The position numbers were made by a program, and so were the translations under genes. Under the pieces are notes generated by a model. That model was not told where the DNA came from, ran no database searches, and worked only from the letters and a program-made list of their open reading frames with translations. Below are positions 36,190-39,816 of a stretch of DNA of 43,865 bases, piece by piece. The stretch is from positions 1-43,865 of IMG/VR virus record IMGVR_UViG_3300006622_000020; one strand, written 5' to 3'. Position 1 is the stretch's first letter, and each line of letters opens with the position of its first letter. The DNA is from a virus.

Positions 36190-36990
36190 ATGGCATTTAA
36201 TATAAGTAAATTTAAGTCAAGTTTTGAAGGTCTAGGTGGCCCGGCCAAAGCGAATCTTTTCGAAGTCATGATGACCAATCCAAAATGGCTAAACAGCGCA
36301 ACAGAATCAGATAAGGGTAAATTTGACGCAAGAACATTTACGATGTTCTGTAGTTCAATTGCTTTTCCTGGTGTTGCGGTTAATACAACAAGTTATGATT
36401 ATGTTGGTCAGCTAACAAAAGTTATTCCAAGCCAAATTACTACGCCAGGACCAATCCAAGCAACATTCATTTGCGATTCAGATCATCATACATTAAGATT
36501 CTTTCATTATTGGATTCGTCATGTTTTGAACTATAGTTCTTCTGGTGGTATACATAGTGAATGGAAAGAAAAGTTAAGACACGAAGTTGGATTCAAAGAT
36601 GATTATGTTTGTGATTTAGAAATCAAACATTTTTCTACAGACAGTAATCCAAGGTCTTATTATTCTGCAAAGCTACAAGGTGCTTATCCTGTTTCTGTAA
36701 GTGGAATTGATTTGGCCTGGGATGGTACAGATTCGTATTTAACAATACAAGTACAATTTGCATTTGATGATTATGAGTATTCAGCTGATAAGGCAGGACA
36801 CACAGGATCACGTTCAACAAGAGGAGCAGGTTTACTTGATCTTCTTGGAGATGTAGCAGGTTTTGCTGATACCGTAAGAGGTACATTAAAATCAGGCAAA
36901 CCAAGAAACATACAAGATGCAGTTAACAAATTACAAAGAATAGGGAATGCGTTAGATAATGTTAATGACAGCATTCCTACTAAAGGATAA
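36190..36990 (+). CDS. gp54: Baseplate tail-tube initiator gp54
   Basis: 266 aa. It belongs to the tail-tube fold family. The N-terminal LGGPAKANLFEVMMTNP and FCSSIAFPGVAVNT parallel the opening of tube proteins, and the segment AYPVSVSGIDLAWDGTDSY followed by LTIQVQFAFDDYEY parallels T4 gp54 (CIPISVSAPELSYDGDNQ...). The C-terminal extension of about 70 residues argues for gp54 (T4 320 aa) rather than the major tube protein gp19 (163 aa). gp54 forms the first ring on which gp19 polymerises. TAGGAG lies just before the ATG, overlapping the end of the upstream gene. Confidence 0.75.
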   Translation: MAFNISKFKSSFEGLGGPAKANLFEVMMTNPKWLNSATESDKGKFDARTFTMFCSSIAFPGVAVNTTSYDYVGQLTKVIPSQITTPGPIQATFICDSDHHTLRFFHYWIRHVLNYSSSGGIHSEWKEKLRHEVGFKDDYVCDLEIKHFSTDSNPRSYYSAKLQGAYPVSVSGIDLAWDGTDSYLTIQVQFAFDDYEYSADKAGHTGSRSTRGAGLLDLLGDVAGFADTVRGTLKSGKPRNIQDAVNKLQRIGNALDNVNDSIPTKG

Positions 36991-37007: not shown

Positions 37008-37709
37008 ATGGCATTACCAAAAATTGATTTACCGTTAAACAAACTAACTTTACCCAGCGATGACAGTGAAGTTTTATATAGACCGTTTACGGTAAAAGAA
37101 GAAAAGATATTATTAGTAGCAGCGGAAGCAAGAGATCCGATGGTAGAAATGGTGGCAATTAAACAAGTAGTAAATAACTGTTTATATGATAAGCCAATTG
37201 AAGAAATATCAATGTTAGATTTAGAATACATATTTTTAAAGCTAAGATCATCTGCAGTTAATAATTCAGCTGCATTTACAATAACAGATCCAGATACTAA
37301 CGAATCAATACCTCTTGAGATGGATCTTGAAAACATGGAAATATTAAGAGATCCGAGTCATAGTAAAGAAGTTAGAATTAATGATGATTTAGTTTTATTT
37401 TTAAAGTATCCAAACATTGATGATTTCACAAAGATTATAGATATGGATGCAGCCGATCCATTAGTTAATTATGTTATTATGGTTTCTTGTTTAGATACAT
37501 TGGCAACAGAAGATGAAGTACATAACTTCGATGAGTATAGTGAAGAAGATATTGCTGAGTTTATGGATAATATGTCGGGAGACGTAATTAAAAAGATATC
37601 TAACTTTTTTGATACAATGCCGAGGCTGAGACAAGAAATTAAATATACAAACAGTAATGATGAAGAAAAGACATTTGTGGTTGAGGGGATGCGCAGTTTT
37701 TTTACATAA
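37008..37709 (+). CDS. gp26: gp26-like tail assembly chaperone (0-frame product)
   Basis: 233 aa. The acidic sequence (MALPKIDLPLNKLTLPSDDS, YRPFTVKEEKILLVAAEARD) fits the gp26 family of T4-like phages, classically called a baseplate hub protein. It lies between gp54 and the putative tape measure, where tail assembly chaperones sit in other phages. The last codons are AGT TTT TTT ACA TAA, placing the heptamer T TTT TTT in the right phase for -1 slippage into the next ORF (see the slippery-site entry). A shifted product would carry 232 residues of this protein plus 61 more, about 293 aa. Confidence 0.75.
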   Translation: MALPKIDLPLNKLTLPSDDSEVLYRPFTVKEEKILLVAAEARDPMVEMVAIKQVVNNCLYDKPIEEISMLDLEYIFLKLRSSAVNNSAAFTITDPDTNESIPLEMDLENMEILRDPSHSKEVRINDDLVLFLKYPNIDDFTKIIDMDAADPLVNYVIMVSCLDTLATEDEVHNFDEYSEEDIAEFMDNMSGDVIKKISNFFDTMPRLRQEIKYTNSNDEEKTFVVEGMRSFFT

Positions 37710-37733
37710 GCCTTAGTCATATGAGCCTAGGGC
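37697..37733 (+). promoter_or_regulatory. Predicted -1 programmed ribosomal frameshift signal
   Basis: Slippery heptamer T TTT TTT at 37697-37703, in gp26 phase as AGT TTT TTT. A 6-base spacer ACATAA (which ends with the 0-frame stop) follows, then a 7-bp hairpin: GCCTTAG (37710-37716) pairs with CTAGGGC (37727-37733), with one T-G wobble, around a 10-base loop. After a -1 shift the frame reads TAC ATA AGC CTT AGT CAT ATG... and is open to TAA at 37886. All three elements match known -1 frameshift sites. Confidence 0.8.
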
Positions 37734-37888
37734 ATTATTATCAATCTGTTTTTGGTTTAGCACAACATCACAAATGGAGTGTTAGTGATATTGAAAGTAT
37801 GATGCCGTATGAAAGAGATTTATATTTTCAAATGTTATTGGAATTCATAGAAAGACAAAAAGAAGCGCGTGATAACGCCAAAAGGTAA
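37721..37888 (+). CDS. gp51: Small frame -1 partner of gp26 (gp51-like/chaperone T part)
   Basis: 55 codons from the internal ATG: MSLGHYYQSVFGLAQHHKWS, VSDIESMMPYERDLYFQMLL, ending EFIERQKEARDNAKR. In lambda-like phages the frameshifted T segment also follows G, carries a pattern such as 'MPYERDxY...LLxEFIxxQKE' and leads into the tape measure. No Shine-Dalgarno sequence precedes ATG 37721, and the ATG lies in the loop of the predicted frameshift hairpin. Expression as a gp26 fusion is therefore more likely than independent initiation. The gp51 name is a guess from position in the T4 hub cluster. Confidence 0.7.
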   Translation: MSLGHYYQSVFGLAQHHKWSVSDIESMMPYERDLYFQMLLEFIERQKEARDNAKR

Positions 37889-37896
37889 TAAATTAA

Positions 37897-39816
37897 ATGG
37901 CAGAAATAAGTAGAGATACGCAAGCAATTTTAGATCGTCTCAAAAGAGAGGGATCGCTTACACGTAATGGTGGAGACGGAAAGAACTCTTTAAAGACTGT
38001 TAAAATAAACCTTGAAAAATTTGGAGTACTCTTTCAGGGTATACAAAATGAACTTGCCAATTTAAATAAAACTTTTGGTCAAATGCTAGGAGCAAATCCT
38101 AATTCGTTCAACGGGCCATTGCCGCAAGCAGAGCAAACAACATTAGAACCACCTAAAGTTCAATTTGATGAAGAACAATTACGGGCTCTAGGTCTTGACG
38201 AAGAAACAATTGAATTACAAAAGAAAGCTGCTGAATTAAATATTAAAAATAATTTAGAAGATGAAAAGTTAAGAGCTGAAACTGAGCAGAAAAGGAAACA
38301 AGACGAGGAAGACAAGCGAAGGAAAGAGCGGTTAGAAAGTTCAAAAGCGTATCTTAAAGAAAAGACTATTTCAGGACAAGTACTTACAAATCCATTAAGC
38401 TTCTTTACTAAACTATTAAAAGGTGCTGCAATTGCATTTGTTGGATTTAATGTTGTTAGAGGTATAGTAGATCAATGGACAGGCGGTAAGTTTACTGAGT
38501 TTGTTGAAGGAATAGATTATGCTGCAATTGGAGAAGGCATAAAAACATTTTCTACTTTCCTTGGAGATACTCCTTGGGCTCAATTTACTACAGCGCTACT
38601 TGCGTGGTCAGCAATTGATTTTGGTGTACCGCTTGCTCTCAGTGTAACTGGTGAAGTCTTACGAACAAGCATGTTAGCCAAGGCGTTATCAGGTGGGGTA
38701 GAGAGTACGATTAAAAGCAGTAAAGGATTCGCGAGTACTGTGATGTCAGTTAGAGGCGCGGCGTTTACCGCACTTGGTATTGGTGTTGCTATTGGTGGAG
38801 CAAAGCTAGCTGATTACGTAAGAAAAGAAATGGATGGAATGAATTCAGAACAAATTGCCAACGAAAAGTTAACTAATGACTGGGGTGATCTAGTTGATAT
38901 AGGCGGTATGACCGCAGCTGGCGCATCAATCGGCATGATGTTTGGGCCAAATGGCGCTCTTGTTGGAGCAATATTAGGATTTGCGTTTGGTGTGGGTAAA
39001 AAGGCATACGATTATATTAGCGCAAGTTCAGAAGAAAAGATTAGCTTTGATGAAATGGGCGAAGACTTAGCAAGAACCAATGCAAAAACCGCGCAAGAAA
39101 TGCTACAACAATATGAAGATGGTACAAGAGAATTAACTGAAGAACAAATAGAGGCTTTAACGGAACAGGCTAAAGGTCCATCTCAAGACTTGTTAGACGC
39201 GACCAATAATGAGATTGGAGATCAGCGTGCTCGAATACAAAAACAGTTAGCACTGATTGACCTTGAAAGAGGCGATGCACAAACGATGGGAATACAGGTG
39301 GGTCCAGACGGAGAGCTTCAAGCAACCTATGGTCGAGCAATTACTGACGCTTCAGTGATTGCTGAACGTGAAGCTGATATCAGGAAAAGAAGAGAAGAAA
39401 AATTAGCAGAGTTGGCTCGTATTGATGAAAGAGTAGCAGAAAGAATTGAAAAAGGCTACGGTACATTAGAACAAATGACCAAGCAAGATCCTGAAGGATT
39501 TATTGAAGGCATTAAGTATATGTTTTCTAATAGTGCTGAAATTATTCGTGGTAGAGAAGCAGAAACGCAGGCTAGGTTAGATCAAATAATAAATTACTTT
39601 GAAAAGAGTACAAACGATGATAATTTAACGGATGGTCAGATATCGTCTATTATTAAAAGAGTAGAAGAAGGTGCAGAAGCATATCCTATTATACAAGTTA
39701 TTAATAAAGGTGGTGATGTGAATCAGTTTGTAGATGCTTCGGATAAATCAAGTACAGTTAACAAAAGAACTCTATACCCTAATGTTGGCGCACCAGCGGC
39801 AATGCCTACAGGATAA
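37897..39816 (+). CDS. Putative tail tape measure/hub protein (gp29 position)
   Basis: 639 aa, compared with 590 in T4 gp29. Residues about 98-155 form a highly charged coiled coil (EDEKLRAETEQKRKQDEEDK). Hydrophobic Gly/Ala-rich segments follow near residues 175-190 (LLKGAAIAFVGFNVVRGIV), 288-305 (AAFTALGIGVAIGGAKLADY) and 335-370 (GMTAAGASIGMMFGPNGALV). A second helical region spans about 430-570. Coiled coils plus membrane-like segments are usual in tape measures, and it comes straight after the gp26/frameshift pair. By eye it has no clear similarity to T4 gp29, so the role is by context. Last gene of the plus-strand block. Confidence 0.65.
   Translation: MAEISRDTQAILDRLKREGSLTRNGGDGKNSLKTVKINLEKFGVLFQGIQNELANLNKTFGQMLGANPNSFNGPLPQAEQTTLEPPKVQFDEEQLRALGLDEETIELQKKAAELNIKNNLEDEKLRAETEQKRKQDEEDKRRKERLESSKAYLKEKTISGQVLTNPLSFFTKLLKGAAIAFVGFNVVRGIVDQWTGGKFTEFVEGIDYAAIGEGIKTFSTFLGDTPWAQFTTALLAWSAIDFGVPLALSVTGEVLRTSMLAKALSGGVESTIKSSKGFASTVMSVRGAAFTALGIGVAIGGAKLADYVRKEMDGMNSEQIANEKLTNDWGDLVDIGGMTAAGASIGMMFGPNGALVGAILGFAFGVGKKAYDYISASSEEKISFDEMGEDLARTNAKTAQEMLQQYEDGTRELTEEQIEALTEQAKGPSQDLLDATNNEIGDQRARIQKQLALIDLERGDAQTMGIQVGPDGELQATYGRAITDASVIAEREADIRKRREEKLAELARIDERVAERIEKGYGTLEQMTKQDPEGFIEGIKYMFSNSAEIIRGREAETQARLDQIINYFEKSTNDDNLTDGQISSIIKRVEEGAEAYPIIQVINKGGDVNQFVDASDKSSTVNKRTLYPNVGAPAAMPTG

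Follow-up and report, generated by a model that had tools for sequence, protein, structure and literature searches.

The gp26 locus and its signals

The window analysed here is the whole 43,865-nucleotide stretch of IMG/VR virus record IMGVR_UViG_3300006622_000020. Its gp26-like gene is preceded by a tail tube-like gene (PHROG 45) and followed by a gene called tape measure by position only, and the features of the locus are listed below.

36190-36990, plus strand: tail tube-like gene directly upstream of gp26 (PHROG 45 tail tube, E=2e-37)
37008-37709, plus strand: gp26-like gene encoding the short product of 233 aa, TAC-N, putative lambda G analogue (Pfam PF12322, PHROG 150, AGGA ribosome site)
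37697-37703, plus strand: slippery heptamer T_TTT_TTT, phased with gp26 as a tandem -1 slip requires
37703-37888, plus strand: -1 extension of 61 codons plus stop, gp51-like C-terminal part, putative lambda T analogue (PHROG 634, conservation, T4 gp51 alignment)
37704-37709, plus strand: 6-nt spacer ACATAA, including the gp26 stop TAA (37707-37709)
37710-37733, plus strand: 7-bp hairpin with a 10-nt loop, likely frameshift stimulator (pairing and covariation in 15 relatives)
37721-37723, plus strand: ATG within the loop of the hairpin, lacking both conservation and a ribosome site, probably not a start
37897-39816, plus strand: putative tape measure gene encoding 639 aa, several stretches of which are hydrophobic (position only)

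The gp26-like ORF belongs to Pfam PF12322 (T4_baseplate; E=1.6e-45, residues 12-232), being the only gene of that family in the whole record, and it also matches PHROG 150 (E=3e-49). The short downstream ORF matches PHROG 634 (baseplate hub assembly catalyst; E=8.7e-19) from profile position 63 onward, and this match, together with the alignment of T4 gp51 to a fusion profile described below, identifies the extension as homologous to the C-terminal part of gp51. In HTVC008M, a gene in a similar place is annotated as a putative tail tape measure, with one small gene between it and the gp51 ORF; the similarity between that gene and the putative tape measure of the window is not significant, and no clear family was found for the latter.

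In the gp26 frame, positions 37695-37709 read AGT TTT TTT ACA TAA, and the T_TTT_TTT at 37697-37703 has, in phase, the X_XXY_YYZ form expected of heptamers for programmed -1 ribosomal frameshifting. Among the window ORFs of at least 120 aa (10,998 codons), no other T_TTT_TTY occurs in phase. After a slip, the -1 frame reads FF-YISLSHMSLGHYYQ... and stays open for 61 codons to a stop at 37886-37888, the 55-codon ORF from ATG 37721 forming the 3' part of these; the predicted long product is thus 293 aa in length, made up of 232 gp26 residues (junction at F232) and 61 more. The hairpin stem pairs GCCTTAG (37710-37716) with CTAGGGC (37727-37733) in seven pairs, with 37713-37730 being G-U. The original prediction had described this heptamer in gp26 phase, followed by a 6-base spacer and a 7-bp hairpin, and a -1 frame open through a 55-codon ORF lacking its own ribosome site. 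All of these elements were verified in the sequence: AGGA precedes gp26 and AAGG precedes the next gene, and a Shine-Dalgarno core is absent before ATG 37721.

Conservation of the slip site and hairpin

Scans of viral contigs and annotated phages yielded 254 loci in which the gp26 stop could be read, and in 248 of these a heptamer, either T_TTT_TTC (156) or T_TTT_TTT (92), lies just before that stop, usually one codon ahead of it. When relatives are grouped into lineages of <80% identity, 88 of 89 carry the heptamer; its conservation has a log10 probability of -37 given the amino acids and gene-pooled codon usage, a value that assumes independent lineages, and since these 89 are not fully independent and were taken from site-bearing loci plus L052-L054, the fair count is 248/254. 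The slip site is also present in the named phages P-SSM4, syn9, HTVC008M, phiN3, nt-1, Aeromonas 65, C48C1, phiAS5, and Yut3, with nt-1, Aeromonas 65, and phiAS5 representing Straboviridae outside the T-evens. All eight phage records tested contain a single gp26-family gene, and a second gp26 copy as the source of a long form is ruled out in them.

At the equivalent place, T_TTT_TTC occurs in Yut3, T_TTT_TTA in XG4, G_GTT_TTC in Serratia 3M, and G_ATT_TTC in CBA120. In the two Ackermannviridae of this series, CBA120 and 3M (L277:1501-2307 and L279:1501-2262), gp26 is followed by a -1 extension that is not annotated, the slip position being occupied by G_ATT_TTC or G_GTT_TTC, and the 3M site matches that of T7 gene 10.

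The six loci without T_TTT_TTY are L052-L054, L142, L173, and L087. The slip site of L052-L054 (L052:4688-4700) is G_TTT_TTT, for which P-site re-pairing is mismatched and the -1 frame is still open. L173 nearly duplicates HTVC008M, and its gp26 contains a frame break. L142 (L142:4001-4894), a 236-kb phage contig, carries an in-frame gp26-gp51 fusion (SFWLGMAH) with neither a slip site nor a second gp26 gene; either the short form has truly been lost or an indel was introduced in assembly. Vibrio K475 (L087:3402-4405) shares a further arrangement with Vibrio K361 and Pseudomonas Cygsa01 (L275:2435-3391 and L272:2572-3482), in which the heptamer is missing and the gp26 stop overlaps a downstream ATG (TAATG), possibly a solution based on reinitiation.

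Base errors that split one ORF do occur in this data set, as the frame break of L173 illustrates, and an assembly artefact or a decayed gene could in principle create the arrangement seen in the window. Cultured phages with complete genomes, however, show the like arrangement, as do 248/254 loci, and the named complete genomes refute assembly error, leaving this explanation a negligible probability.

The hairpin is more restricted in its distribution. In the window, no sampled 45-nt stretch of the gp26 gene folds as stably as the 45 nt that follow the heptamer, although z reaches only -1.8 against dinucleotide shuffles. Within the window clade, 15 distinct sequences show pairing in 96.2% of cells and compensatory double changes at two pairs (CG/GC and UA/GC/AU), with a covariation score reached by 0/500 shuffles. 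One clade of cyanophages has an 11-bp hairpin in the equivalent place; a pair within it is found as UA (16), AU (13), and GC (13), and the 5' base of this covarying pair falls at the third position of an Ala codon. Covariation in both clades indicates an RNA stimulator under selection, and the comparisons support a stimulator hairpin that is real in the window and cyanophage clades and is lineage-specific and replaceable. A universal hairpin was rejected, as the structure is missing or weak in many other lineages. The alignment of relatives that was proposed along with the original prediction bore out a conserved heptamer, hairpin, and open -1 frame, with the qualification that the hairpin is not universal.

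These data also bear on transcriptional, as opposed to ribosomal, slippage as the origin of the -1 product. Polymerase slippage is possible in principle on seven consecutive T, but 58/89 lineages have T_TTT_TTC, with only six T and always in the phase for tandem slippage, and a covarying RNA hairpin lies at the distance of a ribosomal stimulator. Transcriptional slippage was rejected on these three grounds (six-T sites, constant phase, and covarying hairpin) and is regarded as highly improbable.

Translation of the extension

The extension could instead be an ordinary small gene (gp51) with its own start, translated by reinitiation after the gp26 stop, in which case the T run would be incidental. 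An ATG does lie at 37721, 12 nt beyond the gp26 stop, database records list the ORF as a gp51 or hub assembly catalyst of its own, and the TAATG overlap without a heptamer in Vibrio K475, K361, and Pseudomonas Cygsa01 is in keeping with such a start. Ahead of the extension's conserved YY core, however, a Shine-Dalgarno core occurs in 0/89 lineages, compared with 51/86 gp26 starts, and an ATG in only 40/89. The distance from the slip site to the conserved core is constant across the 89 lineages, the -1 frame is already conserved ahead of every potential start, and the conservation of the heptamer far exceeds what the amino acids require. The ATG at 37721 had been pointed out as lying in the hairpin loop, which it does; as a conserved feature it does not hold, since most relatives have ATA or ATT at this position, and a conserved loop ATG as a start was rejected. 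Because an ATG is present in fewer than half of the lineages, the Shine-Dalgarno core is absent, the spacing is constant, and many close relatives carry ATA or ATT, the extension is unlikely to be produced independently. The T4 gp51 protein, which corresponds to the full-length fusion as described below, also speaks against a separate small gene, and this explanation is considered very improbable.

Probable tail chaperones and the T4 proteins

The T4 proteins were compared with a fusion profile built from 189 fusions. T4 gp26 matches the first part only (E=8.6e-24), while T4 gp51 matches positions 23-281, across the junction (E=9.8e-14), and the gp51 of Aeromonas avDM2 likewise matches positions 13-288. 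The two T4 proteins are homologous to the products of the marine phage, gp26 being collinear with the short product and gp51 with the predicted frameshift product. Because T4 gp51 aligns across the junction, it is the gene-encoded counterpart of that predicted product. Genes 26 and 51 of T4 are separate and on opposite strands, whereas the marine phage has one gene with a slip site, and two genes in T4 thus encode what one gene would make in the marine phage.

In phage lambda, the G and G-T tail chaperones are a short form and a -1 extended form encoded near the tape measure gene. The locus in the window resembles this system in its short and predicted -1 extended forms, in lying near a putative tape measure gene, and in placing the slip site shortly before the first ORF ends; it differs in using another heptamer and, in the marine clade, in having a hairpin directly after the stop, and sequence similarity is not claimed. 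The signals for two products from one gene by way of an in-phase heptamer near its 3' end, a trait of lambda G/GT, are present and conserved, with the long product itself predicted. Judged from sequence comparison, gp26 and the next ORF are very probably one gene with two products generated by programmed -1 frameshifting, acting as G/GT-like chaperones. The proposal that gp26/gp51-like proteins are G and GT chaperones and not simple hub parts is supported in turn, and a G/GT-like pair provides the better fit because T4 gp51 and gp26 are collinear with the predicted fusion and the short form, respectively.

We infer that slippage takes place in vivo, with the long product in the minority. Most ribosomes would stop at TAA 37707 and release the short chaperone of 233 aa, and a minority would slip by -1 with the P and A sites on the TTT TTT of T_TTT_TTT, aided by the hairpin, to yield the 293-aa fusion. 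On the model of lambda G and GT, the tape measure protein would receive a coat of numerous short copies, the few long ones would bring in subunits of the tail tube, and both chaperones would then leave.

The structure of gp26 was modelled with AlphaFold2 (pLDDT 88.6) and compared with 350,542 PDB chains using Foldseek. The top match, well ahead of most other PDB matches, is the HK97 tail assembly chaperone gp13 (2OB9; probability 0.60, E=0.58, ∼99 columns). This match to the model is suggestive of a tail assembly chaperone fold and is not enough on its own to establish homology; a phmmer search of gp26 against the PDB gave no match.

Vladimirov, Gautam and Davidson (Virology, 2022) reportedly identified gp26/gp51 as the tail assembly chaperones of T4-like phages. 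The PRFect authors refer to that work for the presence, in some T4-like phages, of a short gene alongside a longer gene for the fusion (PMC10885494); in the Adele paper it is the reference given for poly-T slip sites in the TAC genes of T4-like phages (PMC12846349). The main idea of the G/GT reading of gp26/gp51 is thus already in the literature and is not new, as the 2022 identification and the passages citing it indicate. The TAC frameshift of Adele and the Andersonviridae (GTTTTT) similarly has a poly-T slip site ending TAC-N and a conserved -1 frame before the tape measure, although it concerns other phage families, and T4-like phages are cited there as known poly-T cases (PMC12846349). 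In a review of the T4 tail, gp26 and gp51 are classed among the chaperones of hub assembly (PMC3004832), and a 2016 review describes G-T frameshifting as conserved in long-tailed phages except T4 (PMC5009743). What the present comparison contributes is how widely the site is conserved, the covariation of the hairpins, the test for start sites, and the finding that gp51 directly matches the fusion.

In many cyanophage and marine phage genomes, this locus is listed as two hub genes and would be better annotated as one frameshifted tail chaperone gene; the identity of T4 gp51 would likewise be explained as that of the long isoform. A joint reading, put forward tentatively and with slightly less than even confidence, is that frameshifting is ancestral in T4-like and related phages, with the slip site fixed and the stimulator hairpins rebuilt or lost by lineage, and that it was replaced in the T-evens by a short gene and an independent long gene, and in other branches by a stop-start overlap or an in-frame fusion. 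If this reading is true, one locus would hold several natural solutions for producing a short and a long isoform. The locus offers a natural series for asking why phages keep or drop frameshifting as a means of setting the short-to-long ratio.
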